From assembly GCA_017983615.1 (NCBI GenBank), contig JAGOBB010000003.1, positions 124,001 to 188,000 of the forward strand: a stretch of DNA of 64,000 nucleotides, written 5' to 3'. Position numbers and translations under genes: made by a program. The DNA is from Azonexus sp. (GTDB lineage: Bacteria > Pseudomonadota > Gammaproteobacteria > Burkholderiales > Rhodocyclaceae). Numbering within the stretch: position 1 is the first letter of the stretch; each line of letters opens with the position of its first letter. The notes beneath the pieces are model-generated. The model saw only the letters and a list, made by a program, of their open reading frames with translations, did not search any database and had not been told where the DNA came from. Positions 1,418 through 56,864 of the stretch are shown piece by piece.

Positions 1418-1457
1418 GAATGCTACGGTCGGCCCGAAAAAAAGGCCAAAATCAAAA
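1418..1457 (-). repeat. 40-bp interspersed repeat, copy 1
   Basis: Starts with the perfect core AATGCTACGGTC, then GGCC, an A7 tract, a second GGCC and AAAATCAAAA. It lies in the gap between the transglycosylase and the DinB-like gene. This copy is nearest to the consensus of the family. Strand is given as the strand that reads GACCGTAGCATT. Confidence 0.9.
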
Positions 1458-1461
1458 TAAT

Positions 1462-2076
1462 CTACGCGGCCGGCGATGCAGACTTGTGCTGCGTTTGCTG
1501 CGCCACGATGCGCTGCAACTGCCGCCGATGTGCCATCGTATGCATGGCCGCCAGCGCATGCCAGCCGCGCAGGTCCAGTTCGCCGAACCACGGATGGGCG
1601 TGGCGCAAGCTGGTGCGCAAATCGCCCAGGCTATCGATCAGCCGGACATAGTCATCGACCGCCGCCCGCAGCAGACCGTGTTGCTCGGCACCGGCCCCCG
1701 GTTCCGGCTTGACCTCGGCGATGCGCAGTTCGCGCCCGAACGCCGTGCCGTCCGCCAGGGCCTCGGCCAGCTGGCGGATGCCGGTAGCGACGATGACCAG
1801 ATGCTGCAGCACCATGTTCGCCGACCAGCAACGGCTGCTGTCCTCCAGCCCGGTCACCCGCGGCAGCAGCACTGGCTCGCTGGCCAGCGAATCCGGCAGG
1901 CTGGCCGCCAGCGCCAGCGCCGTCTCGGTCTCCCGACGCAGCCAGCGGCTCAGCGCATCCTTGCTCAACATGGCGCGCAGGGATTGCAGGAAAGCACTGG
2001 AAATCCAGCGTTCCAGGGCCGGCAGGCCGGCGCCGGGCGGGGCGAGATCGGGTTCTTGGTCCATGGTGTTTTGCAA
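1462..2076 (-). CDS. DinB-like / DUF1569-type four-helix protein
   Basis: 204-residue, mostly helical protein resembling the DinB/YfiT superfamily of metal-dependent four-helix bundles. The C-terminal segment AMHTMAHRRQLQRI supplies the His pair typical of the metal site, and a third His can come from MVLQHLVI. Members include thiol S-transferases and many proteins without an assigned reaction, so no reaction is claimed. Start is uncertain: TTG at 2076 or ATG at 2064. It follows the lipoprotein gene at 2086 on the same strand and may be cotranscribed with it. Interspersed repeat copy 1 lies directly after its stop. Confidence 0.65.
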   Translation of the reverse strand: MQNTMDQEPDLAPPGAGLPALERWISSAFLQSLRAMLSKDALSRWLRRETETALALAASLPDSLASEPVLLPRVTGLEDSSRCWSANMVLQHLVIVATGIRQLAEALADGTAFGRELRIAEVKPEPGAGAEQHGLLRAAVDDYVRLIDSLGDLRTSLRHAHPWFGELDLRGWHALAAMHTMAHRRQLQRIVAQQTQHKSASPAA

Positions 2077-2085
2077 AGTTTCCAG

Positions 2086-2559
2086 TTATTGCCAACGACA
2101 AGCGCGCTCGAACACGAAAGGCTTGTCGACCAGGGTGCCGACGGCCGCCGGCTGGTCGTTGCCGGGTCGCAGCAACAATGCCCGCTCATGCCAGGGATCA
2201 TCCCGCAGGATGTAACGCGCGCCCGGCGCCAGCACCACCTCCATGGCGTAGCAGCGGATGGACTGCAGGACGAAAGGATGCCCGTGCGGCACGCTGCTCA
2301 GCCACAGCCGGTGCGGACCCGGCTTCACGACAAATGACCAGTCGCGGAACACGCTCGGGATGCGGATGGCGTCGATGGGATGGCTGTCGATGCCACGCAC
2401 CAGCAGGGGCTGGCTGGCGTCGTTGTCGAGCAGCGAGACGGTAGCGAGATTGCCGGTATCGGCGCCGTCCAGCGCAACGAGCGAGTGGGTCAGCGGCGCA
2501 CAGGCCGCCAAGACGGCCGAGGCCAGCAGCAGGGCGAGAAGGCGAGCCTCAGTGCGCAA
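2086..2559 (-). CDS. Putative outer-membrane lipoprotein
   Basis: 157 residues with a lipoprotein signal: a hydrophobic stretch ends in the lipobox LAAC, so the mature protein would start at the cysteine near residue 20. The rest (YILRDDPWHERALLL, AIRIPSVFRDWSFVVKPG) has no family I recognise with confidence; it looks like a small beta-rich domain. The start is TTG at 2559 and overlaps the end of the upstream membrane-protein gene, so translation is probably coupled. Confidence 0.65.
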   Translation of the reverse strand: MRTEARLLALLLASAVLAACAPLTHSLVALDGADTGNLATVSLLDNDASQPLLVRGIDSHPIDAIRIPSVFRDWSFVVKPGPHRLWLSSVPHGHPFVLQSIRCYAMEVVLAPGARYILRDDPWHERALLLRPGNDQPAAVGTLVDKPFVFERACRWQ

Positions 2560-2902
2560 ACTGGAACCGCACGAGCGCCATGGTCAGCGCGAAGAGATAG
2601 CCGTAGGAAAACTTGTCGATGCGTAACACGGCGTCTCCACGCTTGGCTCGCCATGCCCCCATCGCACCCATGCACAAGCCGACCGCGAGCGGTGTCAGCA
2701 ACAGATTGGCCAGTCGCGGCAAACCCGCTGGCGTCAGGTGGGCCGGAAAGACGAGCAGACTCAGCCCGCCGGCGAGGGCGCCGAAAATCGCATAACCGAG
2801 CGCGGCCAGCCAGGGATTCGGCGGTTTGCGACATGGCTGCGTCGCCGGGTGCGCATGTGCTACTGGAAACAGTGGCGCCACACCCGGACGAAGATCAGCC
2901 AT
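2549..2902 (-). CDS. Small integral membrane protein, function unknown
   Basis: About 117 residues from ATG at 2902; an in-frame TTG at 2938 would add 12 residues but lies inside the attC right core. Two or three hydrophobic helices are visible (AALGYAIFGALAGGLSLLVF and LANLLLTPLAVGLCMGAMGAW), followed by a third near the C-terminus (GYLFALTMALVRFQF). It lies immediately after the attC recombination point on the same strand, the position a cassette gene would take, but its base composition matches the chromosome. It overlaps the lipoprotein gene downstream. Function is not recognised. Confidence 0.6.
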   Translation of the reverse strand: MADLRPGVAPLFPVAHAHPATQPCRKPPNPWLAALGYAIFGALAGGLSLLVFPAHLTPAGLPRLANLLLTPLAVGLCMGAMGAWRAKRGDAVLRIDKFSYGYLFALTMALVRFQFAH

Positions 2903-2932
2903 CTTCTGGCGCTGGGAGTTGGCCGGCGGACA

Positions 2933-3524: not shown

Positions 3525-3586
3525 TGAGGTGCCCCCCAAAAACAGTGCCACAGGGAATTTAGTAAAGTCCGTTTTCGAGAAGGAGA

Positions 3587-3856: not shown

Positions 3857-3882
3857 GCCCCCAGCAAAAGCGTGAGGCAGTC

Positions 3883-5162: not shown

Positions 5163-6986
5163 CTACTGCCCGCGCAAAAACAGCTTGTCCAGCTGATCCA
5201 TCGTCAGCTCTGTCCACGTCGGGCGGCCGTGGTTGCATTGGCCGGCGCGTTCGGTTTCTTCCATTTGGCGGAGCAGGGCGTTCATTTCGGGCACGGTCAG
5301 CTGGCGGCGGGCGCGGACGGCGCCGTGGCAGGCCATGGTGGCGAGGAGTTCGTTGCGCCGCGCGGTGGCGAGCTGGGTGATGCCGTGTTCGCGGAGCTCG
5401 GCGATCAGCGATTTGGCCAGGGCGGCGGGGTCGCCGCTTTGCAGCAGGGCGGGGACGGCGCGGACGCCCAACTGGTTGGGGCCGAGCGGGGCGATCTGGA
5501 AGCCGAGGTCGGCTAGGGCGTCGGTGTGTTCTTCGACGGCGGCGATGTCGAGCGGGTCGGCGGCGAAGACGGCCGGGATCAGCAGCGCCTGGGTGGCGAT
5601 CTGGCGATGGTCGAAGGCGGTCTTCAGCTTTTCGTAGAGGATGCGCTCGTGCGCGGCGTGCATGTCGATCAGGATCAGGCCGCGGGCGTTCTGGGCGAGG
5701 ACGTAGATGCCGTGCAACTGGGCCAGCGCGTAGCCGAGCGGCGGGCCGTCGCTGCCGGTGCTTTCAACGGGCTGGAATTGCGGGGCGACTTCGGGGCGGG
5801 GGGCGGGCGACTGGCCGATGTCCTGCGCGGCGCGGGCGAAGGCGAGGTAGGCGGCGGCCGCCGGTTCGGCGACGCCGAGGCTGCCTTGATGGCGCAGCGG
5901 CGGGGAATATTCGTAATTTGGCCGAATTTCCGGGGTTACCGTAGCATTTGAATATTCAGCGTTCGCAGTGCTGCGTTCAACCAGCGCCGGGGCCGCTTCG
6001 GCCTGTACCGGCGCGGCCAGCGTGCGCTGGATGGCGTGGAAGACGAACTGGTGCATGGCGCGCGAGTCGCGGAAGCGGACTTCGGTCTTGGCCGGGTGCA
6101 CATTGACGTCGACCAGCGCCGGGTCGATGTTGACGAACAGGCAGACGGCCGGCTGGCGGCTGCCGTGCAGCACGTCGCGGTAGGCTTCGCGCAGGGCGTG
6201 GCTGATGATCTTGTCGCGCACGAAGCGGCCGTTGACGAAGACGTACTGGCCGTCCTTGGCGTCGGTGGCGCGGGTCGGGTCGATGGCGAAGCCGGCGATG
6301 GCCAGCGCGTCGGTGCCAGCCTCGATGCGCCGGGCGGCACCGAGGAAGTCGTCGCCGAGGATGTCGGCAATGCGCCGCGGCGCATCGGCGGGGGCGAGCT
6401 GGAAGAGGTTGCGGCCGTTGTGGGTCAGGCTGATCGCGACATCCGGCCGGGTCAGCGCCAGGCGCTTGACGGCATCGGCGCAGTGGGCGAATTCGGTGCT
6501 TTCCGATTTCAAAAACTTGCGGCGGGCCGGGGTGTTGAAATAGAGGTCGCGCATTTCGACGACGGTGCCGGCCATCAGCGCGGCCGGCTCGGGCTCGCCG
6601 CCGGGTTCGCCACGCAATTTCCAGGCGTGCGCGGCGCCGCGTTCGCGGCTGGTGATGCTCAGGCGAGCGACGGAAGCGACCGAGGCCAGCGCCTCGCCGC
6701 GAAAGCCGAGAGTGCCGACGCGTTCGAGGTCGTCGAGCGAGGCAATCTTGGAAGTGGCATGGCGGGTCAGGGCCAGCGCCAGTTGATCCTTGGCAATGCC
6801 GCAACCGTCGTCGGTGATGCGGATCAGCTTGACGCCGCCTTCTTCCAGATGCACCTGGATGGCCTTGCTGCCGGCGTCGAGGCTGTTTTCGAGCAGTTCC
6901 TTGAGGACGGAGGCGGGTCTTTCGACCACTTCGCCAGCGGCAATCTGGCTGATCAGCAGGTCTGGGAGGCGGGCGATGGTCGGCAT
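5163..6986 (-). CDS. mutL: DNA mismatch repair endonuclease MutL
   Basis: 607-residue mismatch-repair ATPase that couples MutS recognition to strand nicking. The N-terminal GHKL ATPase carries ENSLDAG, DDGCGI, HATSKI and GTLGFRGEALAS. The C-terminal dimerisation domain has the endonuclease motif DMHAAHERILYE from D441, plus ACHGAVRA and CNHGRP. It therefore belongs to the nicking MutL type, as expected without MutH. Start is ATG at 6986 (PTIARLPDLLISQIAAGEVV); an upstream in-frame start at 7037 adds a tail not seen in the family. Interspersed repeat copy 2 lies in the flexible linker between domains and is translated as NATVTPEIRPN. It is divergent from katG. Confidence 0.97.
   Translation of the reverse strand: MPTIARLPDLLISQIAAGEVVERPASVLKELLENSLDAGSKAIQVHLEEGGVKLIRITDDGCGIAKDQLALALTRHATSKIASLDDLERVGTLGFRGEALASVASVARLSITSRERGAAHAWKLRGEPGGEPEPAALMAGTVVEMRDLYFNTPARRKFLKSESTEFAHCADAVKRLALTRPDVAISLTHNGRNLFQLAPADAPRRIADILGDDFLGAARRIEAGTDALAIAGFAIDPTRATDAKDGQYVFVNGRFVRDKIISHALREAYRDVLHGSRQPAVCLFVNIDPALVDVNVHPAKTEVRFRDSRAMHQFVFHAIQRTLAAPVQAEAAPALVERSTANAEYSNATVTPEIRPNYEYSPPLRHQGSLGVAEPAAAAYLAFARAAQDIGQSPAPRPEVAPQFQPVESTGSDGPPLGYALAQLHGIYVLAQNARGLILIDMHAAHERILYEKLKTAFDHRQIATQALLIPAVFAADPLDIAAVEEHTDALADLGFQIAPLGPNQLGVRAVPALLQSGDPAALAKSLIAELREHGITQLATARRNELLATMACHGAVRARRQLTVPEMNALLRQMEETERAGQCNHGRPTWTELTMDQLDKLFLRGQ
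5912..5949 (+). repeat. 40-bp interspersed repeat, copy 2 (inside mutL)
   Basis: Near-consensus copy with one core change (ACCGTAGCATT preceded by T instead of G) and a degenerate tract part. It lies in the linker-coding part of mutL and is read as NATV on the mutL strand. The palindromic octamer GAATATTC stands directly on both sides (5905-5912 and 5950-5957), like a target duplication. Confidence 0.75.
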
Positions 6987-10180: not shown

Positions 10181-10221
10181 GAATGCTACGGTCGGCCGCA
10201 AAAAAAGGCCAAAAATCAAAA
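10181..10221 (-). repeat. 40-bp interspersed repeat, copy 3
   Basis: Perfect core AATGCTACGGTC, GGCC, an A7 tract, GGCC and AAAAATCAAAA. It lies between the terminator of the first PEP-CTERM gene and the end of the convergent second one. Confidence 0.9.
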
Positions 10222-10280
10222 TGCCGGACAATGAAAAGGGCCGGACTTGCCGACCCTTGATTCGCCGCGGGAGCCTGGTA

Positions 10281-10889
10281 TCAATTGGCCGGCTGGCGAC
10301 GGCGCCGGATGCCGGCCAGGCCAACGATGGACAGGCCAAGAAGGGCCAGCGAGCCCGGCTCGGGAACCTGGTTCGGATCGGTGGTGACCGTATTGGTGAA
10401 CGAGAAACTAAGGTCGTTGTAGTCAAACGGCCCGTCGTACAGGTCTTCGAAACTGACCAGTGTTTCGTCTGGCAGCCAGTCTTCCTCGACATTGGCATGG
10501 GCGTTGCCGTCCGGATTGCGCGACGCATCGCCGGTAAAAAAGTCGTAACCGGTGTCGTTGACATGCAGGCGGAACATCAATTCGGTGCCAATCGAGAACG
10601 AACCCAGATTCACCGTGCTGCCTACGGCGGAACCATGATTGTTGAAAATGAAAAGATCGTTTGACGTGTTGCCGTCGTCACCGGGGTCTCCGCCGGCGTC
10701 CAGCATCAGGTACAGGTCGTTGCTGAATGAGGCAGAATTGCCCTGATAGGTCGCGATAATGTCGGATGTGCTGCCGACCAGGACTTTTAGCCCGGTACCG
10801 GTGGCAGCGATGGGAAAGGCGTGCGAGGTAGCGGGAAGCGCCAGTGCTGCAAGGCTGACAACTGCGCTGAGCCATTGGGTCGGTTTCAT
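10281..10889 (-). CDS. PEP-CTERM protein with DUF4114-like domain
   Basis: 202-residue exported protein. The signal peptide is at 1-24 (ending ATSHA). A middle segment with a DUF4114-type signature (TLVSFEDLYDG, FDYNDLSFSF) follows acidic Asp/Asn-rich stretches that suggest calcium binding. The C-terminal PEP-CTERM signal is VPEPGS, then LALLGLSIVGLAGI and RRRR. It converges with the other PEP-CTERM gene, and both would be processed by the same exosortase. A clear AAGGAG site precedes the ATG. The role is probably in surface or matrix structure; the partner is unknown. Confidence 0.88.
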   Translation of the reverse strand: MKPTQWLSAVVSLAALALPATSHAFPIAATGTGLKVLVGSTSDIIATYQGNSASFSNDLYLMLDAGGDPGDDGNTSNDLFIFNNHGSAVGSTVNLGSFSIGTELMFRLHVNDTGYDFFTGDASRNPDGNAHANVEEDWLPDETLVSFEDLYDGPFDYNDLSFSFTNTVTTDPNQVPEPGSLALLGLSIVGLAGIRRRRQPAN

Positions 10890-11138
10890 GAATTACTCCT
10901 TGTTGTGATTGTTGCGCGTTCTCTGAAGCACACGGTATGCCATTGTTCAACCGACTGAATTGATGACATTTTTTCTAGTTGTTTCTTCGGCTGTGTAAAT
11001 TTTTTCGACGGAATATTGGGAGGGCGCGCCAGATGAGCGGGCGGGTACGGCGCCCGGTGGGGAAGGGGCGGCGCTGCCGCCTCGGCAGACGCCGCCCATG
11101 GGGTAAAATGCACCCTCATTCAACGCCCGGCGCGCCGC

Positions 11139-11780
11139 ATGGAAATCCTCTCCCAGTTCATCGAAATCGTCCTTCACCTCGACAAGCATCTGGCGGTGCT
11201 GGTCCAGCAGTACGGGCTGTGGATCTACGGCATCCTGTTCTTCATCGTCTTCGCCGAAACCGGTTTCGTCGTGACGCCCTTCCTGCCCGGCGATTCGCTG
11301 CTATTCGTGGCCGGCGCGCTGGCCGCCATCGGCGAGGGCGGCATGGATATCTTCACGCTGATCGCCGTGCTGATTGTCGCGGCGGTGCTCGGCAACACGG
11401 TCAATTACCAGATCGGCCGTTTCCTGGGGCCGAAGGTCTTTCACTGGGAAAACTCGCGCTTCTTCAATCGTGACGCGCTGGTCAAGACGCACGCCTTCTA
11501 TGAAAAACACGGCGGCAAGACGCTGGTCATCTCGCGCTTCCTGCCGCTCTTTCGCACCTTCGCCCCGTTCGTTGCCGGCATCGGCGCGATGAGCGTCGCC
11601 CGTTTCACGCTGTTCAACCTGATCGGCGCCGCCGGCTGGGTCGTCTCGCTGTGCCTGGCCGGCTACTGGCTGGGCAACCTGCCGTGGGTCAAGGCCAACC
11701 TGTCGCTGATCATCGTCGGCATCATCATCTCCTCGCTGATCCCCATCGGCTGGGGTTACCTGAAGAGCAAGGAAGCCTGA
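11139..11780 (+). CDS. DedA family membrane protein
   Basis: 213-residue inner-membrane protein of the DedA/VTT family, related to undecaprenyl-phosphate and phospholipid flippases. Hallmarks are FAETGFVVTPFLPGDSLLF, GNTVNYQIGR and the F-x-R-(x3)-R signature in SRFLPLFRTFAPFVAG. About five hydrophobic segments are visible. The stop overlaps the ATG of the next gene by one base (TGATG), so it is translationally coupled to the lipoprotein gene. DedA proteins matter for envelope integrity and drug or pH resistance; the substrate here is unproved. Confidence 0.92.
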   Translation: MEILSQFIEIVLHLDKHLAVLVQQYGLWIYGILFFIVFAETGFVVTPFLPGDSLLFVAGALAAIGEGGMDIFTLIAVLIVAAVLGNTVNYQIGRFLGPKVFHWENSRFFNRDALVKTHAFYEKHGGKTLVISRFLPLFRTFAPFVAGIGAMSVARFTLFNLIGAAGWVVSLCLAGYWLGNLPWVKANLSLIIVGIIISSLIPIGWGYLKSKEA

Positions 11781-12484: not shown

Positions 12485-13128
12485 AGAATATCGTCATCCT
12501 GATTTCCGGCCGCGGCAGCAACATGGAGGCGCTGATCGCCGCCCGCGATGCCGGCAATCTGCCGGTCAACATCGCCGCCGTGATCAGCAACCGGCCCGAT
12601 GCCGCCGGGCTGGCGACCGCCGCCCGGGCCGGCATCGCGACCCGCCACCTCGACCACAAGGCCTTCGCCGGACGCGAAGCCTTCGACGCCGCGCTGGCCG
12701 AATGCATCGACGGCTTCGCCCCCGATCTGGTCGTGCTCGCCGGCTTCATGCGCATCCTCAGCGAAGGCTTCGTCCGCCACTACGAGGGCCGGTTGATGAA
12801 CATCCACCCCTCGCTGCTGCCGTCCTTTCCCGGCCTGCACACCCACCAGCGGGCGCTGGAAGAGGGCGTGCGCATCCACGGCTGCACCGTGCATTTCGTC
12901 ACGCCGACGCTCGATCACGGCCCGGTCATCATCCAGGCCGCCGTGCCGGTGCTCGACGGCGACACCGAAAGCAGCCTGGCGGCGCGCATCCTGGTCCAGG
13001 AACACAAGATCTACCCGCAGGCCGTGCGTTGGTTCGCCGAAGACAAGCTGACGCTGGACCACGGCCGCGTCCGGCTGGCCGCCGATCTCGTCGCCGACGC
13101 CGCGCTGGTTTCGCCCGAGGTACATTAA
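12481..13128 (+). CDS. purN: Phosphoribosylglycinamide formyltransferase
   Basis: 215-residue GAR transformylase that uses 10-formyl-tetrahydrofolate in the third step of purine synthesis. The Rossmann start VILISGRGSNMEALI binds the phosphate. Catalytic triad residues are N107 and H109 (MNIHPSLLPSF) and D145 (TLDHGPVI). GLHTHQRALEEG and HGCTVHFVT are also typical. The ATG overlaps the lipoprotein stop (ATGA). A MITE-like element lies immediately after the stop. Confidence 0.97.
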   Translation: MKNIVILISGRGSNMEALIAARDAGNLPVNIAAVISNRPDAAGLATAARAGIATRHLDHKAFAGREAFDAALAECIDGFAPDLVVLAGFMRILSEGFVRHYEGRLMNIHPSLLPSFPGLHTHQRALEEGVRIHGCTVHFVTPTLDHGPVIIQAAVPVLDGDTESSLAARILVQEHKIYPQAVRWFAEDKLTLDHGRVRLAADLVADAALVSPEVH

Positions 13129-13287
13129 GAGCCTGTGAAATATTTGTTCACGCCCGCTCCCCGCGCCCAGACGAGCCCGCTCGGCGTTGCAAATGCTCGC
13201 CATAGCCCGAGCTATGGCTGTGCTTTGCGCCTTGATCGTGCACGCCTGAGCACGTTGCTCGGGCGCGCCCAAATAATTCACAGGCTC
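13129..13287. mobile_element. MITE-like inverted-repeat element
   Basis: A 159-bp non-coding element that fills the gap between purN and the DUF3108 gene. Its terminal inverted repeats GAGCCTGTGAAATATTTG and GAGCCTGTGAATTATTTG match at 17 of 18 positions. Inside there are further inverted segments (CATAGC / GCTATG; CGAGCA / TGCTCG). It has no ORF, so it would depend on a transposase elsewhere. It begins at the base after the purN stop. Confidence 0.7.
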
Positions 13288-13296
13288 TGAGCCGCC

Positions 13297-14262
13297 ATGC
13301 CCCTCGCTTTCCTCGCCGCGCTCGCCGCCTCGCTCGGCATCCACGTCGCTGCCCTGTTCGGGCCGGACGTCGAGCTGTTCGGCGGTGGCGACGAGCCGGT
13401 GACCCTACGCGCCGAATTGCAGCCCTTGCCGGCGCCCAAACCGCCAGCCGAGCCCAGGCCGGCCGCCAAGCCGCGCCCCAAGGTGGCCAAAGCCACGCCG
13501 CTGGCCACGACCCAGGCTGCGCCCGCGGCGCCAGTTGTTCCCGCCCCGCCCGAACAGAATTCTGAAAATGGCCAAAAAAACGAGCCGACCGTAGCATCGG
13601 ATCACAGCGCGCCGCCGGAGCCGGCCAAGCCCCTGCTGCCGGCCAACGGCACTATCCGCTACGCCATATTCATGGGCGAGCGGGGCTTCCAGATCGGCCG
13701 CGCCGAACATACCTGGGAATTCACCGAGGACGGCCGCTACCGCCTGACCGGGATGACCGAAACCAGCGGCCTGGCCGCCCTCTTCAAGTCCATCCGTTTC
13801 GAGAACGAAAGCAGCGGCCGGCTGGTCGCCGGCGGCCTCCAGCCGGAGTTGTACCGGACCCGCAAGAACGGCCAGGACGCCAACGAAAACGCCGATTTCG
13901 ACTGGGCGACGACGGCCGTCCACCTGTCGCGCGGCGACAAGACCCAGGCCATCGTCGCCGGCACCCAGGACATCCTGTCGCTCAACTACCAGCTCGCCTA
14001 CCTGCCGCGGCCGGAAGCCGGGACGACGGTCGGCGTCGTGACCGGTCGCAAGTTCGAGCGCCATGTCCTCGATTCGCTCGGCGAAGAGGAACTGGTCACG
14101 CCGGCCGGCCGTTTCCGCACGCTGCACCTGCGCGCCATGGGCAGTAATGTGACTGAAATCTGGATTGCGCTCGATCGTCACCGCCTGCCGGTTAAAATCC
14201 GCTTTACCGACAAGAAAGGCGACGTTTACGAACAAGTCGCCACCGAAATAGGAATGCCATGA
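13297..14262 (+). CDS. DUF3108 domain protein
   Basis: 321 residues. The N-terminus has one hydrophobic helix (PLAFLAALAASLGIHVAALF), then a long Pro/Ala/Lys linker (about 45-115, TonB-like in composition), then a DUF3108 domain (about 118-320: MGERGFQIGRAEHTWEFTED, GRFRTLHL, EIWIALDRHRLPVKIRF). DUF3108 is expected to be periplasmic with a beta-barrel or LolA-like fold and unknown role. Interspersed repeat copy 4 lies in the linker and is read in frame as NEPTVASD. The stop overlaps the next start (ATGA). Confidence 0.85.
   Translation: MPLAFLAALAASLGIHVAALFGPDVELFGGGDEPVTLRAELQPLPAPKPPAEPRPAAKPRPKVAKATPLATTQAAPAAPVVPAPPEQNSENGQKNEPTVASDHSAPPEPAKPLLPANGTIRYAIFMGERGFQIGRAEHTWEFTEDGRYRLTGMTETSGLAALFKSIRFENESSGRLVAGGLQPELYRTRKNGQDANENADFDWATTAVHLSRGDKTQAIVAGTQDILSLNYQLAYLPRPEAGTTVGVVTGRKFERHVLDSLGEEELVTPAGRFRTLHLRAMGSNVTEIWIALDRHRLPVKIRFTDKKGDVYEQVATEIGMP
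13562..13598 (+). repeat. 40-bp interspersed repeat, copy 4 (inside DUF3108 gene)
   Basis: GGCC, an A7 tract and CCGACCGTAGCAT with one core mismatch at the last base. The middle tract is A-rich on this strand, whereas most copies have T there. It is in frame and adds residues of the linker. Confidence 0.8.
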
Positions 14263-15636: not shown

Positions 15637-16911
15637 ATGAACGAAAAAAGCCAGGCCCTGCGCCTGATCAACGATCTGCTGGCGGATTTCCGCAATCCCG
15701 ATTTCGTCTGGCAGGTTATCGCGCTGCTCGCCTGTCTTGGCCTTGCCGGGCTGGTCGCCCGCTGGTGGCGCGGCAGCCGGACCGAGGGTGCCGGCCGGTT
15801 GTCCGATGCCAGTTCGCGCCTGGCCTTCCCGCTGACCGGTATGGTCCTGACCGGCATCGCGCTGGCGGCGCTCGGCAACTTCATTCACGTCAACCTGCTC
15901 AAGCTGGCCATGCCGCTGCTTGGCTCGATGGCACTGGTGCGCGGCGTGGTCTTCGTGCTCCGCCAGGCATTCCCGCAGGCAGCCTGGCTGACTGCCTGGG
16001 AGCGCATCATCGCCGCCACCGTCTGGGGCTGGCTGGCGCTCTACATCACCGACCTCGCACCCTACGTCATCGAGGTGATGGAAGGCGTGCAATTCCACGT
16101 CGGCAAGCAGCACATCGACCTGTGGACGGTGCTGCGCGGGATCGCCACCGTCTTCCTGACTGTCGTCTTCGCACTGTGGATCGCCGGGGTCATCGAAGCG
16201 CGCCTGATGCGTGTCCACACGCTCGACGGCAATTTGCGCCTGGTCGGCGTCCGTGTCGCCAAGGCAGTGCTGACCGTGGTGGCCATCGTCGCCAGCCTGG
16301 CGCTGGTCGGCATCGACATGACGGCGCTGTCGGTATTCACCGGGGCGCTGGGCGTCGGCCTTGGCTTCGGCCTGCAGAAGATCGCCAGCAATTACGTTTC
16401 CGGCTTCATCATTCTGCTCGACCGCTCGATCCGTATCGGCAACATCATCCAGGTCGGCAGCGACAGCGGCGAAGTGACGCAGATCACGACGCGCTACACC
16501 GTGCTCAAGCATCCGGCCGGCAGCGAGTTCATTGTTCCCAACGAGACGCTGATCGGCTCCACGGTGCAGAACCAGACCTGGTCCGACACCCGGCTCCGCC
16601 TGACCGCCACGCTTGGCGTTGCCTACGACACTGATCTCGACCTCGCCTGCCGGCTGATGGTCGACGCCGCCGCCGCTCACTCGCGCGTGCTGGCCGAGCC
16701 GCCACCGAAGGTTTTCCTGACCCAGTTCGCAGACAGCAGCATCAACCTCGAACTCGGCTTCTGGATCGACGATCCCGAAGAGGGCAAAGGCAACATCGTG
16801 TCCGATGTCAATTTCGCCATCTGGCGTGCCTTCAGGGAACACGGTGTGCAAATCCCCTTCCCGCAGCGCGAAGTGCGGCTGCTCAACGAAACAGGCGGGA
16901 AGCTTTCCTGA
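15637..16911 (+). CDS. MscS-family mechanosensitive channel
   Basis: 424-residue inner-membrane protein. Several N-terminal hydrophobic segments (about 20-225) precede the MscS pore helix and beta domain: FTGALGVGLGFGLQKIASNY, SGFIILLDRSIRIGNII, ITTRYTVLKHPAGSEFIVPN. This is the expected Gly/Ala-rich pore helix and the following beta sheet; the C-terminal alpha/beta domain (about 320-420) is complete. It should release solutes on hypo-osmotic shock. No strong ribosome site is visible, and the start is chosen for the first Met before the first hydrophobic helix. It converges with ccdA-like across interspersed repeat copy 5. Confidence 0.9.
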   Translation: MNEKSQALRLINDLLADFRNPDFVWQVIALLACLGLAGLVARWWRGSRTEGAGRLSDASSRLAFPLTGMVLTGIALAALGNFIHVNLLKLAMPLLGSMALVRGVVFVLRQAFPQAAWLTAWERIIAATVWGWLALYITDLAPYVIEVMEGVQFHVGKQHIDLWTVLRGIATVFLTVVFALWIAGVIEARLMRVHTLDGNLRLVGVRVAKAVLTVVAIVASLALVGIDMTALSVFTGALGVGLGFGLQKIASNYVSGFIILLDRSIRIGNIIQVGSDSGEVTQITTRYTVLKHPAGSEFIVPNETLIGSTVQNQTWSDTRLRLTATLGVAYDTDLDLACRLMVDAAAAHSRVLAEPPPKVFLTQFADSSINLELGFWIDDPEEGKGNIVSDVNFAIWRAFREHGVQIPFPQREVRLLNETGGKLS

Positions 16912-16973
16912 AATTGGCCGTTTTTTGGGGGCGACCCTGGGGCCAGCCTTTGTTTCTATGGTCGTAGCATTCG
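16909..16973 (+). repeat. 40-bp interspersed repeat, copy 5 (split by 26 bp)
   Basis: GAAATTGGCCGTTTTTTGGG and CGACC are followed by 26 extra bases (16937-16962) and then CGTAGCATTC. The core is therefore interrupted after GACC. The copy fills the gap between the convergent mscS and ccdA-like stops. Confidence 0.7.
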
Positions 16974-18172: not shown

Positions 18173-18913
18173 TCAGATCAGGCGGCCGAGGACGATGCCC
18201 TGCCGGCGCAGGTCGTCGAGCAGCGCGGCGCCGTGGGCCAGCAACTGCTCCGGTGCGGGGTGCTGCAATTCGGCGGCGATCTGCCGGATGGCCGCCTCGC
18301 CGGTTGTGGGGGCGGTGGCGAGCAGGGCCAGCAGGCGGGCGGTGACGGCATTGATGGCGCTGAACTGCACATGATCGTCGGCGTCGCGATAGACGACCAG
18401 ATGCGTCGGCTGCGGCTTGCGCGGCCGGTAGTCGGGGCCGATGCGATGCACCGGCCAGGCGTAGGCCAGATTGAGCAGTGCCGGGTTGAGGGCGACCGGG
18501 GCGGCCAGCAGGTCGCCGGCCGGGTTGTGCGCGGGTGTCGCGCAATCCATCACGTCGACGGCCAGCTCAGCCCATTCGTAGTGCGCCAGTTCGGCCAGCC
18601 AGGCGGGCAGTGGCTGGCGGATGTCTGCTTCGGCCAGGTAGCGGGTGAATTCGCGCGGAATTTCCCGGAACCACGGGGTGTGCAGCGGCCAGTCGCGGTA
18701 GAAGGTCCGGCACAGGCGGCGCCAGCGCTGTTCGCCGACGATGGCCCGGCTGACCGGGAAGCAGGCATCGACGAAGCCGCAAATGTTGTTGAACAACAGT
18801 TCGTTGTACACCGCCATCCGGCGGGCAGGCACGCCAGCCGGGCGCGGCACGTGGTGCGGGTCGCGCAGGTGGCCGGCGAAGGCGCGCTGGAAATTCTGGA
18901 AATCGGCGTTCAT
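18173..18913 (-). CDS. hvfC: HvfC/DUF2063 family partner protein
   Basis: 246 residues. The N-terminal DUF2063 domain is visible (FQRAFAGHLRD, RRMAVYNELLFNNICGFVDA, FPVSRAIVGE), followed by a C-terminal domain (THLVVYRDADDHVQFSAIN and a helical end) seen in HvfC/BufC proteins. The family partners an MNIO enzyme and recognises the leader of the precursor peptide, by analogy with MbnC. Its ATG overlaps the hvfB stop (ATGA), so it is the third gene after hvfA and hvfB. It should help HvfB modify HvfA. Confidence 0.85.
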   Translation of the reverse strand: MNADFQNFQRAFAGHLRDPHHVPRPAGVPARRMAVYNELLFNNICGFVDACFPVSRAIVGEQRWRRLCRTFYRDWPLHTPWFREIPREFTRYLAEADIRQPLPAWLAELAHYEWAELAVDVMDCATPAHNPAGDLLAAPVALNPALLNLAYAWPVHRIGPDYRPRKPQPTHLVVYRDADDHVQFSAINAVTARLLALLATAPTTGEAAIRQIAAELQHPAPEQLLAHGAALLDDLRRQGIVLGRLI

Positions 18914-20481: not shown

Positions 20482-21051
20482 ATGCCCTTGGACCCCCTGC
20501 AAGACCCCGAGTTTCTCACAGGCCTGCGCCGTGACATGCTGCGCTTCGCGGAGATTCAGCTCCGCGACAAGGCGCAGGCCGAGGATGCCGTGCAGGAAGC
20601 CTTGACCGGGGCCCTGTTGGGACGCGAAAAATTCGCCTCGCGCGCTTCGCTGCGCACCTGGGTGCTGTCCATCCTGAAAAACAAGATCGTCGACGCGCTG
20701 CGCAGCAAGATTCGCCAAAATGCTACGGTCGAGCCGGAAAATGAGGCAAATCCAAATCCCTGGTTTGACGACCGCGAACACTGGACAGAGGACACTCGTC
20801 CGTCGGAATGGCAGTCGCCGCAGGAGGCCATGGAAAGCAAGCAGTTCTGGGAAGTCTTCGAGACTTGCCTCTACCGCCTGCCGGAAGCCAGCGCCCGCAT
20901 CTTCACCATGCGCGAGGTGCTTGGTTTCGATACCGACGAAATCTGCGAGACCATCGGCATCACCAGCAACAACTGCTTCGTCCAGTTGCACCGGGCGCGC
21001 CTGGCACTGCGCGCCTGCCTCGGCGCCAACTGGTTCGGCGAAGCGGCCTGA
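20482..21051 (+). CDS. ECF RNA polymerase sigma factor
   Basis: 189 residues from ATG at 20482 (PLDPLQDPEFLTGLRRDMLR); an ATG at 20449 would add 11 residues but lacks a ribosome site. Region 2 is visible (FAEIQLRDKAQAEDAVQEAL, SLRTWVLSILKNKIVDALR). Region 4 follows (LPEASARIFTMREVLGFDTD, EICETIGITSNNCFVQLHRA). The two are joined by a linker of about 60 residues into which interspersed repeat copy 6 is read as QNATVEPENEA. It is divergent from the anti-sigma gene and very likely recognises the paired promoters at 20404-20432 and 18129-18157. It may be induced by copper, gold or oxidants; that is inference. Confidence 0.92.
   Translation: MPLDPLQDPEFLTGLRRDMLRFAEIQLRDKAQAEDAVQEALTGALLGREKFASRASLRTWVLSILKNKIVDALRSKIRQNATVEPENEANPNPWFDDREHWTEDTRPSEWQSPQEAMESKQFWEVFETCLYRLPEASARIFTMREVLGFDTDEICETIGITSNNCFVQLHRARLALRACLGANWFGEAA
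20718..20755 (-). repeat. 40-bp interspersed repeat, copy 6 (inside ECF sigma gene)
   Basis: Perfect core AATGCTACGGTC with a drifted tail (GAGCCGGAAAATGAGGCAAA, then TCCAAATCC). It codes for the linker between sigma regions 2 and 4, a region free to vary. Confidence 0.82.
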
Positions 21052-23223: not shown

Positions 23224-23238
23224 GATAGCGCCTCGGGG

Positions 23239-23279
23239 TTTTTGATTTTGGCCATTTTATCGGGGCGACCGTAGCATTT
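23239..23279 (+). repeat. 40-bp interspersed repeat, copy 7
   Basis: TTTTTGATTTTGGCC, ATTTTAT, CGGGGCGACCGTAGCATTTG with an intact core. It lies upstream of the dehydrogenase start and after the terminator of the small-ORF pair. Confidence 0.9.
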
Positions 23280-29034: not shown

Positions 29035-29483
29035 TGCATCAGATCGATATCAAGATTCTCGACAACCGTCTGCGCGAAAGCCCGCCGCAATATGCCACGC
29101 CTGGCTCGGCTGGCCTCGACCTGCGCGCCTGCATCGAAGGGCCGCTGCATGTCGAACCGGGGCAGACGACGCTGGTGCCGACCGGCATGGCGATTCACCT
29201 GGCCGATCCGGGGCTGGCGGCGATGATCCTGCCGCGCTCGGGGCTGGGTCACAAGCACGGCATCGTGCTCGGCAACCTGGTCGGGCTGATCGACAGCGAT
29301 TACCAGGGGGAACTGATGGTGTCGGTGTGGAACCGTAGCCATGCGGGCTTTACGATCAATCCGTTGGACCGCATTGCGCAGTTGGTCATCGTGCCGGTCC
29401 TGCAGGTCGGCTTCAATATCGTCGACGATTTCGATGCCAGCCATCGTGGCGAAGGTGGTTTCGGCAGCACGGGCCACGGCTGA
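29034..29483 (+). CDS. dut: dUTP diphosphatase
   Basis: 149-residue trimeric dUTPase that keeps uracil out of DNA. The motifs are in order: [31 protein letters not shown] with the catalytic Asp, RIAQLVI, and the C-terminal P-loop-like [11 protein letters not shown]. Translationally coupled to coaBC, the usual arrangement in proteobacteria. Confidence 0.97.
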
Positions 29484-29523
29484 TTTTGATTTTTGCCCTA
29501 AAAAAGGGGCGACCGTAGCATTC
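29481..29523 (+). repeat. 40-bp interspersed repeat, copy 8
   Basis: Overlaps the dut stop codon and reads TGATTTTGATTTTTGCCC, TAAAAAA, GGGGCGACCGTAGCATTC. The middle tract is A-rich, and GCCC/GGGC flank it. A terminator follows at once. Confidence 0.9.
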
Positions 29524-36637: not shown

Positions 36638-36670
36638 AAAAAGCGAAGGCCGGTCCGGTCTTCGCTTTTT
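36638..36670 (+). terminator. Rho-independent terminator
   Basis: Stem AAAAAGCGAAG / CTTCGCTTTTT with an inner CCGG/CCGG pairing and a T tract, following the monomeric isocitrate dehydrogenase gene. Confidence 0.9.
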
Positions 36671-36708
36671 TCGTTTTTGGCCTGTTTTTGGCATCGACCG
36701 TAGCATTT
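36671..36708 (+). repeat. 40-bp interspersed repeat, copy 9
   Basis: TCGTTTTTGGCC, TGTTTTT, GGCATCGACCGTAGCATT; the core is intact. It starts directly after the terminator. Confidence 0.9.
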
Positions 36709-42006: not shown

Positions 42007-42795
42007 CTGAACAACCAGCCCATCGCGGTTTTCGACTCCGGCCTCGGCGGCCTGACGGTCCTGCGCGCCCTGCGGGAGCGGCTGCCACAGGAAGATTTCT
42101 TCTATTTCGCCGACACCCGCTTCCTTCCTTACGGCGACCGGCCGGAGACTTTCCTCAAGGAACGCGGCGTTTTGATCGCCGAAGCCCTAGTTCGCCACGG
42201 CGCCAAGGCGCTGGTCATTGCCTGCAACACGGCGACCGCAGCGGCCGCCGAAGCAATTCGGGCCGCCATCGATTTGCCTGTTGTCGCGCTGGAACCGGGC
42301 GTCAAGCCGGCTGTGGCGCTGACCCGCAGCGGCGTGATCGGTGTGCTGGCGACGACGCGCACCTTGCACAGCGAGCGTTTCCAGCGCCTGGTCGGCAATC
42401 ACGCCAACGGCCACCGCGTCATCGCCCAGCCTTGCCCGGGGCTGGCCGAAGCCATCGAGACACTGGGGCCGGACAGCGCCGAGGTCGAGCGCCTGCTCGA
42501 TGCTTTTGTCGCGCCGCTGGCCGCGGCCGGGGCGGACGTTGTAGTCCTTGGCTGCACGCATTACCCGTGGGTGGCCGAATCCATCGCCCGGCGCATGCCG
42601 GCTGGCACCACGCTGCTCGACACCGGTGAGCCGGTTGCCCGCCAGCTCGAAAGGTTGCTCTCAGCCGGCCAGCTGCTCGGCGGCGGCCATGGCCGCCTGA
42701 GCATGGCGACCAGCGGCGACCCCCTGGCCGTGAATGCTACGGTCGCCCGTCTTTTTGGGGCAAAAATGAAAATCGAACACTGGGAGCCGCGATGA
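42007..42795 (+). CDS. murI: Glutamate racemase, with probable CTG start
   Basis: 262-residue enzyme giving D-glutamate for peptidoglycan. Motifs: AVFDSGLGGLTVL, YFADTRFLPYGDRP, catalytic Cys in VIACNTATAAA and second catalytic Cys in VVLGCTHYPW. The conserved N-terminal motif lies upstream of the first ATG/GTG/TTG of this frame (42172), so translation must begin earlier. The only fitting codon is CTG at 42007, five bases after GGGGAG. Repeat copy 10 encodes part of the C-terminus (NATVARLFGAKMKIEHWEPR). The stop overlaps the next start (ATGA). Confidence 0.92.
   Translation: MNNQPIAVFDSGLGGLTVLRALRERLPQEDFFYFADTRFLPYGDRPETFLKERGVLIAEALVRHGAKALVIACNTATAAAAEAIRAAIDLPVVALEPGVKPAVALTRSGVIGVLATTRTLHSERFQRLVGNHANGHRVIAQPCPGLAEAIETLGPDSAEVERLLDAFVAPLAAAGADVVVLGCTHYPWVAESIARRMPAGTTLLDTGEPVARQLERLLSAGQLLGGGHGRLSMATSGDPLAVNATVARLFGAKMKIEHWEPR
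42732..42775 (-). repeat. 40-bp interspersed repeat, copy 10 (inside murI)
   Basis: Intact core AATGCTACGGTC, then GCCCGTCTTTTTGGGGC and AAAAATGAAAATC. It codes for the last residues of MurI as NATV and following. The middle tract is of the flipped type. Confidence 0.88.
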
Positions 42796-45587: not shown

Positions 45588-46139
45588 TCAACGCAACCTG
45601 AACCGCACCGGCAGCACCACCTGACGTGGCGCGTCGGCTGGTAGCGATTGCAGTGAACGGACGGCGCGCAGGGCGGCTTCGTCGAGGATGGGGTGGCCGC
45701 TGCCCTGTTCGACGCGAGCTGCGACGACCTTGCCGGCTTCGTCGATGACGAGCAGGACATCGACCTCACCCTGTAGCCCCTGGGCGATGGCTTCGGCTGG
45801 GTAGAACTGGCCGGCGGCGTCGAGTTTCTTCAGGTGGTCGCGGACGGTCTGGGTCCAGGTTTTCGGGGCTTTTGTCGGATTGCTTGGTTCGGGCCGGGGT
45901 TTGGCCGGTTTTTCGGGGGCGCTGGCCTTGGGTGCTTCGGTGGCGGCGGGCTTGGGCGGTTCGGGCAGGGTCAGCGGCGGGGCGGTAGGTGCGGCCGGGG
46001 GCGGGCGCAGTTCGGCAACCATGAATGCTACGGTCGGCGTCTTTTTTTGGCCAAAATCAACGGCTGGCACGAAGGGCAGCAGGTGCAGGGTGAGCGACAG
46101 CGCCAGCGCCGCAAAAAGCCGGTAATCGGTCCGGGTCAT
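45588..46139 (-). CDS. TonB-like energy transducer
   Basis: 183 residues from ATG at 46139. N-terminal anchor helix (LFAALALSLTLHLLPFVPAV), Pro-rich periplasmic linker (about 50-110: LPEPPKPAATEAPKASAPEK) and C-terminal TonB domain (GLQGEVDVLLVIDEAGKVVA, PILDEAALRAVRSLQSLP). Repeat copy 11 lies just after the anchor and is read as DFGQKKTPTVAFMV. No ExbB/ExbD or receptor gene is adjacent. Confidence 0.85.
   Translation of the reverse strand: MTRTDYRLFAALALSLTLHLLPFVPAVDFGQKKTPTVAFMVAELRPPPAAPTAPPLTLPEPPKPAATEAPKASAPEKPAKPRPEPSNPTKAPKTWTQTVRDHLKKLDAAGQFYPAEAIAQGLQGEVDVLLVIDEAGKVVAARVEQGSGHPILDEAALRAVRSLQSLPADAPRQVVLPVRFRLR
46023..46060 (-). repeat. 40-bp interspersed repeat, copy 11 (inside tonB-like gene)
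   Basis: Intact core AATGCTACGGTC, GGCG, TCTTTTTTTGGCC and AAAATCAA. On the gene strand it gives PTVAF, using the only frame of the element without a stop in that direction. Confidence 0.88.
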
Positions 46140-51736: not shown

Positions 51737-51854
51737 GATGCGGTCCTCGAAAGCGGATGAGTGCAGTCTATTGCTTCTTTGGGAGCTGTAATAGTAGGCA
51801 AAAGGTCGTTTGATTTTTGACTAAAAGTAATGAAACTCTGGCGCCGGGCCAAAA

Positions 51855-51894
51855 TTTCGAATTTGGCTGTTTTTTGCCGCCGACCGTAGCATTC
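51855..51894 (+). repeat. 40-bp interspersed repeat, copy 12
   Basis: TTTCGAATTTGGC, TGTTTTTT, GCCGCCGACCGTAGCATTC with an intact core, in the divergent gap between lrgA and the Mrr-like gene. Confidence 0.9.
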
Positions 51895-52826: not shown

Positions 52827-53100
52827 GCCGCCATGCTGCGCCGGTGTGCCGCCCGCCTAGAATGGCGGCCTGATTGCCAACGGCTGCCATCCTGGACAAG
52901 AAAAACCATGTTTCGATTTTTGCCGTTTTTTAGGGTCGACCGTAGCATTCCGCGATTTTCGACCTATTTCCTGAGTACGGCACGGCAAACTGTTGGCGAA
53001 TCAGCGTCGTCTAGCCCGACTGGCCTGGCCGGTTGACTGCATACATGGAAAGCTGGCCGCAAGATGTTGGAGGGTCGGGGTAATCGAGCGAGTCAGCATT
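52827..53100. other. Intergenic region with repeat copy 13
   Basis: Together with 53101-53247 this is a gap of about 420 bp between the Mrr-like gene and aceB. It contains interspersed repeat copy 13, the palindromes at 53101-53154 and the aceB terminator. I see no ORF with a ribosome site. Confidence 0.5.
52911..52950 (+). repeat. 40-bp interspersed repeat, copy 13
   Basis: TTTCGATTTTTGCCG, TTTTTTAGGG, TCGACCGTAGCATTC with an intact core. Confidence 0.9.
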
Positions 53101-53222: not shown

Positions 53223-53247
53223 CTGTCTCGCTCCAGCCTTTTGTTCT

Positions 53248-54846: not shown

Positions 54847-54956
54847 GACAGCTCCTGGAAGAGTGATGGGAATGTTTCGACAGGACGCATTCTATGGTGA
54901 TTCCGAGTCGCGAAAAATGGGGGTAGAATCATTTCATCTTTTACTTTGAGTATCGA

Positions 54957-55859: not shown

Positions 55860-55866
55860 GCGCGCC

Positions 55867-56220
55867 GTGAAAACGCCCGTCTTTCGAGCCCTCGGCCTCG
55901 TTTCGGTGGCACTCGGCCTGGTCGGCGCAGTGCTGCCACTGTTGCCGACGACGCCTTTCCTGATCCTCGCCGCTTATTTCTTCGCCCGCTCGCATCCGGA
56001 ATGGGAAGCGAAGCTGCTGGCCCATCCGACCGTCGGCCCGGCGATCCGGGCCTGGCGCGACCACCGAGCAATTCCACGCGTCGCCAAGCGGATGGCAGCA
56101 GGGCTGATGGCGATCAGCATCGTCGCCGCCTGGTTCGGATTGCCCGAACCGTGGCGTTATGTGCCGTTGGCGGTCGCTGTGCCGCTGCTCGGCTGGATGT
56201 GGTCCATGCCGTCCGTCTGA
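55867..56220 (+). CDS. DUF454 (YbaN-like) membrane protein
   Basis: 117 residues from GTG at 55867 (7 bp after the LysR stop). DUF454 hallmarks LGLVGAVLPLLPTTPFLILA and AAYFFARSHPEWEAKLLAHP, then WRDHRAIPRVAKRMA. Three hydrophobic helices. Function unknown; in other bacteria it lies near haem or DNA-metabolism genes. Confidence 0.85.
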   Translation: MKTPVFRALGLVSVALGLVGAVLPLLPTTPFLILAAYFFARSHPEWEAKLLAHPTVGPAIRAWRDHRAIPRVAKRMAAGLMAISIVAAWFGLPEPWRYVPLAVAVPLLGWMWSMPSV

Positions 56221-56259
56221 ATGTAAAATTCAAAAGTCATAGAGAGGCAAGGGAAGAGC

Positions 56260-56778
56260 GTGGAAATCCAGGAGGTGGCCAGTCTTGTTGAGGTCCTTGT
56301 GGTCGGAGTGGCGAGCATCTGGGCGTATTTTCGCTTTCGCGGCCGAGATTTTGGACTCACCGATTTCCTGATCTTTGTGCCACTTGCGCTCGGCGCTGAC
56401 TGGCTTGCCTATGTGCTGTTCGGCGTCGTACGCGGCTCTTCGGACTACGGAGGGCTTCTGGCGCTCCTGGTATTGTTGGGCTTGTTGCCCCTTGCCGCTG
56501 GTCTGACGGCCATTGCGGCGATGGCCACGATTGTCTGCGTGTCCATTTATCCCGCCGCTCGAAGCGGGGCGCTAGTCTTGGTGGTGTTGTTGGTGCTGGC
56601 CCATTTTGCACACAGGCATTTTGATGAGGGCAATGAGCCGGGCGGCATGTTGAACAACGATCGGCTAGCCGGCGAAAACTGGGCAATGGAATCTGGGGCC
56701 CGATCAAGGGAAGATTGCGATCGACAGTCCTCTGCACCGGGCTTCAGACGCGGTTGCTATGCGCAACTGAGCCGGTAA
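56260..56778 (+). CDS. Hypothetical membrane protein
   Basis: 172 residues from GTG at 56260 with GGGAAGAG upstream. Four hydrophobic helices (ASLVEVLVVGVASIWAYFRF, LIFVPLALGADWLAYVLFGV, LLALLVLLGLLPLAAGLTAI, ALVLVVLLVLAHFAH), then a hydrophilic tail. No family recognised. Confidence 0.6.
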   Translation: MEIQEVASLVEVLVVGVASIWAYFRFRGRDFGLTDFLIFVPLALGADWLAYVLFGVVRGSSDYGGLLALLVLLGLLPLAAGLTAIAAMATIVCVSIYPAARSGALVLVVLLVLAHFAHRHFDEGNEPGGMLNNDRLAGENWAMESGARSREDCDRQSSAPGFRRGCYAQLSR

Positions 56779-56823
56779 TAGCCTGCATCGCCCCAGGGGC
56801 GCTGACAATAGCCGAAGCAGGGC

Positions 56824-56864
56824 AAATGCTACGGTCGGGCCGAAAATATCCCCAAAATCAGAAA
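56824..56864 (-). repeat. 40-bp interspersed repeat, copy 14
   Basis: AATGCTACGGTCGGGCC, GAAAATA, TCCCCAAAATCAGAAA; the core is intact. It lies between the membrane protein gene and the Excalibur pseudogene. Confidence 0.88.

Follow-up and report, generated by a model that had tools for sequence, protein, structure and literature searches.

The window, by which we mean the whole stretch of 64 kb that was analysed, belongs to a genome labelled G000 here and carries an interspersed repeat within and between its genes (Table 1). The first-pass annotation had listed 14 copies, 11 of them with a perfect core and some inside genes, and this is borne out: all 14 copies exist, 11 cores are exact, two have one mismatch (at 5937 and 13587), one is split (16960-16971), and five of the 14 lie inside predicted genes. 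The orientation had been given as 8 plus and 6 minus; we count 6 plus and 8 minus. If up to two mismatches are allowed, the core is found 15 times in the window against 3.53 expected, and none of 100 shuffles reaches 15. The additional match, with two mismatches at 63833, has no tail and looks like a chance occurrence.

Table 1. Copies of the motif in the 64-kb window.
Position	Strand	Core	Context
1419..1459	+	exact	intergenic (convergent genes)
5908..5948	-	final C -> A	inside mutL; sister species have other dialects at the orthologous site
10182..10222	+	exact	intergenic (convergent); adjoins hairpin/T-run (by eye)
13558..13598	-	first A -> G	in DUF3108 gene; G002 and G034 have other dialects there
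16905..16971	-	split: 27 bp after AATGCTACG interrupt the core, remainder beyond; outer end approximate	
20719..20759	+	exact	in ECF sigma-factor gene; G002 has another dialect there
23238..23278	-	exact	intergenic
29482..29522	-	exact	touches gene end; adjoins hairpin/T-run (by eye)
36667..36707	-	exact	intergenic
42733..42773	+	exact	in Asp/Glu racemase gene
46024..46064	+	exact	in TonB gene, antisense to the gene
51853..51893	-	exact	intergenic (divergent)
52909..52949	-	exact	intergenic (convergent)
56825..56865	+	exact	intergenic (convergent)

The repeat is confirmed, and it extends across the whole genome. The check proposed in the first-pass annotation, a count over the full genome, gave 451 exact cores in G000 (228 and 223 on the two strands), or one per 6.5 kb, and none for the reversed pattern. 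The core AATGCTACGGTC has 12 bp and contains ACGGTC. The consensus of 79 copies is AATGCTACGGTC-R, followed by A/T tracts at +18..23, +29..33 and +36..40, which are present in both G000 and the genome G029 of the same dialect; at the positions of the first tract A makes up 62-77% and T 15-34%. Two tracts about 10-12 bp apart had been described before, and the centres of the first two are indeed 10.5 bp apart, with a third A-rich stretch besides. Over the 79 copies we found no conservation of the flanks beyond -1 and +40. The core is rigid: there are 79 perfect, 13 singly and 22 doubly mismatched copies, while 30 shuffled cores give means of 0, 1.5 and 32.

The 79 copies are spaced evenly (the coefficient of variation of the gaps is 0.64 vs 0.95 simulated, with none of 5000 simulations as low), and no gap is shorter than 1 kb where 12.2 such gaps are expected. 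They are enriched between genes, with 43 of the 79 being intergenic compared to 9.5% of random windows, and 25 of 29 intragenic copies use just two of the six reading frames. A class of terminators or regulatory operators would explain why convergent genes flank 15 of the 43 intergenic copies and why some copies in the window adjoin a hairpin or T-run, as judged by eye. We nevertheless hold it to be very improbable, as 36 of the 79 copies lie in or overlap genes, in both orientations, the 451 copies have no strand preference, and an Rfam search of the window at gathering scores gave no matches.

Next, we asked how the copies originate. At the three copies of the window that could be aligned with sister species, the orthologous sites are ungapped and the sister species have their own dialect there by substitution; no insertion was seen at these sites. 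In G000, at least two copies sit within a longer, about 540-bp repeat that has inverted symmetry of its own. At two G000 sites an inverted motif had seemed to occupy the corresponding place in G029, but both sites lie in one such repeat, so that four of the 11 spanning alignments are not usable as orthologous and were discarded. Two integrated elements contain no motif copies; in an integrase-bearing insert of 33.7 kb in G002 there are none where about 9 would be expected at 27 per 100 kb. A collection of viral contigs searched with one strict pattern gave no matches, which is weak evidence.

The first-pass annotation had named a mobile, REP-like repeat as its alternative. A short repeat that moves or is copied (a REP, a MITE or another transposable family) would account for numerous near-identical copies that are enriched between genes, convergent ones included, and for the copies within the 540-bp repeat. 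However, it does not fit the alignable orthologous sites, where there is no insertion and different dialects occupy the same nucleotides. In addition, the unconserved flanks speak against it, and the singly mutated copies are too scarce for decay. We consider a mobile origin extremely unlikely.

Outside the window, the motif was counted in 76 genomes of the genus. The exact core of G000 occurs in bulk in G000 and G029 alone among 60 genomes. Altogether, 42 of the 76 genomes are rich in the exact core or in a related motif (CGGTC with an A/T tract). In 40 of these, the pattern CGGTCRAC-N14-W5 has 117-941 copies against 0-15 for controls; dialects resembling the one of G000 escape this pattern, and G000 and G029 were classed as rich by their own core. 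Another 29 of the 76 genomes are motif-poor, and many of these carry comEC. The cut-offs between rich, middle and poor were chosen after the counts were seen, and the five middle genomes were omitted from tests. In 285 genomes from 67 other genera the counts are 0-11, that is near background; however, G090, G225 and G253 reach 11 against 0-3 for controls, and therefore a weak trace of the motif outside the genus is possible.

Several sister dialects contain GCGGTC. Among 13 genomes of the genus, six have a distinct first A/T tract, and in seven it is weak or near background. For the derivation of dialects, G018, G035 and G011 offered too few seeds, and the run for G030 was discarded since it converged on codon periodicity; the dialects of G011 and G030 were read by hand, and G361, G024, G362, G005 and G020 have too few sites for a consensus. 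No alternative motif was obvious in 80-100 kb of the motif-poor congeners G350, G354, G363, G016, G018 and G035.

Even spacing, species dialects and the occurrence within as well as between genes would also fit a signal of chromosomal architecture or recombination (Chi-like, KOPS-like or a site for a nucleoid or SMC-type protein), the reader protein of which varies by species. Chi and KOPS are short words oriented with replication, and the motif is like them in that its words are over-represented and species-specific. On the other hand, its strands are mixed locally, with 38 of 75 neighbours sharing a strand, as well as overall. Furthermore, a length of about 40 bp and one-sided A/T tracts are unlike a housekeeping signal, and near absence from 29 of the 76 genomes misfits a housekeeping role. 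We regard this explanation as unlikely.

Most probably, the repeat is a DNA-uptake signal built on the plan of the Pasteurellaceae uptake signal sequence (USS) in a betaproteobacterial genus. An uptake signal was also the leading idea of the first-pass annotation, and it is supported, not proved, by the copy number, the rigid core, the strand balance and the even spacing; it further fits the in-place substitution at alignable sites and the dialects of sister species. The USS is described in PMC1626085 as having a Hin type AAGTGCGGT, an Apl type ACAAGCGGT and a global form ANNNGCGGT, with two A/T-rich segments 3' of the core. According to the same source, perfect copies exceed singly mismatched ones in both the USS and the Neisseriaceae DUS, the density of both is roughly one per kb, and the commonest Apl 10-mer is ACAAGCGGTC, which contains GCGGTC. 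Like the USS, our motif has a rigid core with phased A/T tracts on its 3' side and hundreds of copies, many perfect and few near-perfect, in unbiased orientation, and it arises by mutation where window copies can be aligned. As in the USS, its dialects vary 5' of the core while RCGGT is constant, and several of them share the GCGGTC of ACAAGCGGTC.

The differences from the USS are equally specific. The core of G000 is AATGCTACGGTC and not ANNNGCGGT, and the host does not belong to the Pasteurellaceae. The first tract begins 7 bp past CGGT and not immediately 3' of the core, some species have it in a weak form, the tract spacing is 10.5 instead of 12, and there is the third A-rich stretch. The copies reach about one sixth of a density of one per kb, and several dialects exist inside one genus. 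The DUS is a word of 10-12 bp that contains CTG in all dialects and is described in PMC1626085 and PMC3630211 without flanking motifs; it has dialects between species and is absent in some relatives, as reported in PMC3630211. The motif is like the DUS in being an uptake-type repeat with dialects among species and some relatives without it. Unlike the DUS, the core of G000 has no CTG and phased A/T tracts flank the motif.

We suggest that, in natural transformation, a DNA-binding subunit of the type IV pilus would recognise the rigid core, and the best candidate for this subunit may be the minor pilin of the ComP family that is encoded beside fimT. The phased downstream A/T tracts could shape the duplex or make it bendable so that it can be pulled in, as the literature on the USS suggests. 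DNA that bears the motif would be taken up more often and then recombined in, so that copies born by mutation would spread and stay clean. Dialects differ between species of the genus.

ComP is the receptor for the DUS in Neisseria (PMC3868556, PMC4906244); for the USS, a receptor of the ComN/PpdA type is a prediction made for the Pasteurellaceae in PMC12616744. The pilins here were assessed against Pfam models. The pilin adjoining fimT exceeds the cut-off of the Pfam family ComP_DUS (PF16732) in G000 and at 27 of the 27 loci scanned, while none of three other pilins of G206 matches it. The scan covered 27 of 30 loci; G171, G384 and G351 have no such neighbour of fimT. The PF16732 model may be broad, and the pilin is a candidate ComP. 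It has 20 matches in the PDB, mostly major pilins and chiefly via the N-terminal half, and no entry named ComP is among these 20. The Pfam match, a likeness to the DUS, extends to motif-rich and motif-poor loci alike: the pilin is found at 18/18 rich, 1/1 middle and 8/8 poor loci scanned, and its presence is therefore not discriminating.

Pilin identities were compared for 20 of the 27 loci. Between G000 and G029, which share a dialect, the ComP-family pilin is 91% identical (MutL 96%), but between G000 and G002, with different dialects, it is 28% identical (MutL 92%). Motif-poor G354 and motif-rich G121 have ComP-family pilins that share 85% identity. For FimT, the identity is 91% between G000 and G029 (the G000 copy being cut by a contig end), 53% between G000 and G005 (MutL 96%) and 30% between G000 and G002. 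Since FimT, PilV and the ComP-family pilin diverge about equally between dialect groups, no single pilin stands out.

A match of at least 120 bits to the FimT profile occurs in 21/42 rich and 8/29 poor genomes (p = 0.09, not significant; counts include two matches cut by contig ends). FimT is not supported as a universal dialect receptor, because adjacent pilins diverge similarly and the other 21 of the 42 rich genomes have no 120-bit match. The profile (A1) was built from 17 of 30 loci; left out were partial G000, G023 and G383, G350, G378 and G009, where a neighbouring pilin had been picked instead, G024 with unread residues, G370 and G002 as near-duplicates of G371, and also G365, G171, G384 and G351.

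A match to the ComEC family is found in 71 of the 76 genomes of the genus and in all 51 high-quality ones; in G000 it lies within an open frame of 867 aa. Among genomes at least 95% complete, comEC is interrupted within a contig in 3/16 motif-poor and 1/28 motif-rich genomes (Fisher p = 0.13), where splits at contig ends or with TAG in G019 and G008 (rich) and G006 (poor) were excluded. Motif-less G018 has a truncated and motif-less G035 a frame-split comEC, but with no significant link across the genus, comEC was dismissed as a switch of the motif. The break in G035 may be a sequencing error, because its mutL is also split between frames.

It is possible, though we propose it tentatively, that this is a hybrid third system, in which a minor pilin of the ComP family, the receptor family of the DUS, reads a motif of the USS plan (an RCGGTC core with phased A/T tracts), and in which alterations or swaps of the pilin operon have repeatedly rewritten the genome-wide dialect in a single genus. 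In the literature consulted, uptake signals spread over the genome are known from two families, Pasteurellaceae and Neisseriaceae. If the explanation is true, environmental bacteria would form a third lineage, in which the USS floor plan occurs together with a pilin of the ComP family and with several dialects in a single genus. With species that lack the motif included, the genus would offer a comparative system for the rise, change and loss of uptake specificity. The receptor would be traceable as the protein that changes in step with the dialect, the dialect would predict which species can exchange DNA, and the motif would be of practical use for transformation of the genus. The named deposits that carry the motif are beta-/proteobacterial MAGs, entered as beta proteobacterium, Betaproteobacteria bacterium or Proteobacteria bacterium.

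All 14 copies of the motif that the first-pass annotation had listed for the window are present, and 11 of them have a perfect core as claimed; of the other three, two have a single mismatch and one is split. The orientations, given there as 8 plus and 6 minus, are in fact 6 plus and 8 minus. In 2.92 Mb of the window's own genome (G000; an incomplete assembly, 34 contigs, 85.7%) we found the 12-mer core 451 times, 228 times forward and 223 times reverse, and its reversed pattern not once, so that the genome-wide count is not near chance.

A consensus was drawn from 79 exact copies (452.7 kb of G000) and 40 further copies (400 kb of G029, a second genome with the same core). A purine-rich position -1 is followed by AATGCTACGGTC, R at +12 and S-rich bases; then come a six-base W tract (+18..23), an S-rich GGCC (+25..28), a five-base W tract (+29..33) and an A-rich stretch (+36..40), and there is little conservation outside these limits. 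The centres of the first two W tracts are 10.5 bp apart, which agrees with the earlier description of A/T tracts about one turn apart. That the W tracts are mixtures of A and T suggests that they are read by shape rather than by base. The G000 sample holds 79, 13 and 22 sites with zero, one and two core mismatches, against means of 0, 1.5 and 32 for thirty shuffled cores. According to the excerpt of PMC1626085, perfect copies outnumber singly mismatched ones in both the Pasteurellaceae uptake signal sequence (USS) and the Neisseriaceae DNA uptake sequence (DUS), unlike in regulatory binding sites.

Using genes predicted with a purpose-made simple gene caller, we see that 43 of the 79 copies in the G000 sample are intergenic, compared with 9.5% of random windows; 29 lie within genes and 7 overlap them partially, and 15 copies are situated between convergent genes. 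Among the 29 gene-internal copies, 16 are sense to the gene, in codon phase 0, and 9 are antisense, all in one phase. The spacing is more even than random (gap CV 0.64 vs 0.95, a value as low being reached in 0 of 5000 simulations), with no gaps below 1 kb where 12.2 were expected. Neighbouring copies share a strand in 38 of 75 cases.

The exact core was searched in 60 genomes (the own genome, 35 congeners and 24 from other families). It is abundant only in G000 (451) and G029 (310); 15 congeners have 1-5 exact cores, several also with the same A/T tail, and all 24 genomes of other families lack it. A scan of named genomes with a strict 22-mer, possibly without records close to the window's own genome, returned 33 stretches in three MAGs: Loclat_bin-15563 (CAIXSK01), AG28 (JAHRYW01) and CTSoil_120 (JAGTRS01; one copy). 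One strict pattern had no matches in a viral collection.

From de novo k-mers and profiles we derived related forms of the motif, or dialects, for the congeners (see table); G030 and G032 have weaker forms. CGGTC and the second tract are invariant, while the 5' side and two or three bases 3' of CGGTC vary. When sites are picked by CGGTCR plus the second tract and nothing else, the A/T share of the first tract falls into three ranges: 72-82% (G000, G029, G002, G034, G371 and G366), 56-62% (G014, G370) and 42-53% (G206, G011, G364, G032 and G030), the last in genomes that are themselves 34-41% A/T. The pattern CGGTCRAC-N14-W5 (controls 0-15) splits 76 genomes of the genus widely: 40 have 117-941 copies, 5 have 42-96 and 31 at most 37. 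Two of these 31, G000 (26) and G029 (13), are low by this pattern, yet rich by their own core. Outside the genus (285 of 297 family genomes; 67 genera) we found 0-11 copies, near the controls, the highest being G090, G225 and G253 with 11 each (controls 0, 3 and 2); a stricter pattern gave 0-4 copies there. Some dialects (G011, L162-L166; G031) have a perfectly palindromic core (ACGGTCGACCGT), which lets a single site act as a pair of head-to-head motifs flanked by tracts on either side. In G032 (L152-L156) the 12-mer AGAACCAGAACC occurs about 30 times within 100 kb, probably as a tandem array.

Features and sequence forms discussed in the text (G, genomes, mostly congeners; L, loci from such genomes; C, contigs)
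Feature	Genome or locus	Position	Form or remark
mutL site	G000, window	5908-5948	AATGCTACGGTA
mutL site	G029		AATGCTACGGTC
mutL site	G002		ACTTCCACGGTC-AACCGG
mutL site	G034		ATTCCCGCGGTC-AACCGG
mutL site	G335		GTTTCCGCGGTC-AACCCGG
Dialect core	G002		TKCCACGGTCAACCGGAAAA
Dialect core	G014		TGCTGCGGTCAAC
Dialect core	G034		TGCTGCGGTCGACGGCAAAAA
Dialect core	G121		TGCTGCGGTCGAC
Dialect core	G011 and G206		CACGGTCRAC
Dialect core	G031		ACGGTCGACCGT
Dialect core	G371		TGCTACGGTCAACCGGA
~540-bp repeat	L133 (G002)	10876-11415	motif copy
~540-bp repeat	L092 (G029)	1-554	motif copy
~540-bp repeat	G000, C2 and C4		two places, motif copy
mutL gene	G035	G035:C1:873232-875054	two overlapping frames
Dispersed repeat	window	13128-13294	intergenic, ~166 bp
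MbnB/TglH/ChrH-type RiPP modification enzyme gene	window	18913-19755	

At the mutL copy, G029, G002, G034 and G335 align with G000 across the motif without gaps. G005 has a weaker form at this place, and the motif-poor genomes G018 and G350 have nothing resembling the motif. Orthologues of copy 13587 carry the G002 and G034 dialects. At copy 20719 the dialect of G002 is seen, and G335 and G020 have partial forms there. Another G000 copy aligns, with small tail gaps, to a place in G011 with the G011 core. In-place substitution is thus shown for three window copies and not for the whole set, because copy 13587 is decayed in G029 and copies 10182, 16960 and 23267 are each alignable in at most one congener.

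Inserted DNA was also considered. The comEC gene of G002 (L226-L227) is broken near codon 27 by a 33.7-kb insert with a phage-type integrase, which has none of the dialect copies that occur at 27 per 100 kb in the rest of the genome. The largest copy-free gap of the G000 sample (19.7 kb) contains an island of some 8 kb with an integrase, weak evidence taken alone. In G374 (L230-L231) comEC is likewise interrupted near codon 27, by 33-34 kb, and since the two regions have blocks in common at 80-92% identity, some element may target comEC. In three genomes a motif copy lies within a roughly 540-bp repeat whose interior shows inverted symmetry.

By analogy, the motif would work like the USS, for which the excerpt of PMC1626085 describes a rigid core with A/T segments on its 3' side, a lack of bias in orientation, an origin by mutation, and dialects that vary 5' of a constant GCGGT. 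The motif here has the same plan, and the Apl 10-mer ACAAGCGGTC has the same terminal GCGGTC as several dialects. It differs in tract distance and spacing, in a variable first tract and a third tract, in its lower density and in its host. Because neither core nor host is that of the Pasteurellaceae signal, we do not class it as a USS. With the DUS it shares the existence of dialects, whereas the DUS, as far as the excerpt of PMC3630211 goes, lacks tracts and has another core. The DUS receptor, ComP (excerpts of PMC3868556 and PMC4906244), belongs to the same family as a pilin found here. Among the literature matches listed (titles and beginnings of abstracts, with subscription journals and preprints outside the coverage) none deals with uptake sequences of this lineage.

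A ComEC-family match is present in 71 of 76 genomes and in all 51 high-quality ones; in G000 it lies within an 867-aa open frame. At a contig end, G000 encodes a pilin that passes the Pfam threshold for ComP_DUS (PF16732, 'DNA uptake sequence receptor'), followed by a GspH/FimT-type pilin. The same pair in G206 is followed by PilV-like, PilW and PilY1 genes, and none of three other G206 pilins matches ComP_DUS. The ComP-family pilin was present in 27 of 27 scanned loci. In the soluble part of this pilin, identity is 79-91% within G000/G029, G206/G011 and G002/G370/G371, each group having one dialect, and 26-59% between them, with MutL 92-93% identical between G000 and G002/G370/G371. FimT follows the same pattern (30-67% between those groups with G000) and PilV roughly so. 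The operon therefore changes as a unit, and none of its genes stands out. The motif-poor G354 resembles the motif-rich G121 in both pilins, and neither comEC integrity nor FimT presence significantly tracks the motif across genus genomes. The ComP-family pilin is the best candidate for the receptor.

Between close species the operon of ComP-family pilin, fimT and pilV (L233-L262) is far more diverged than MutL (G000 vs G002: operon pilins 28-30%, MutL 92%), which suggests rapid change or exchange. In G035, mutL and likewise comEC lie in two overlapping frames, reflecting either two real breaks or sequencing errors.

Two further observations concern the window. G034 has roughly nine nearly complete copies of the dispersed repeat (90-97% identity) and G018 has one. 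Since its reverse complement matches it at roughly 70%, the repeat appears MITE-like. The gene for the RiPP modification enzyme possibly belongs to a small RiPP cluster.
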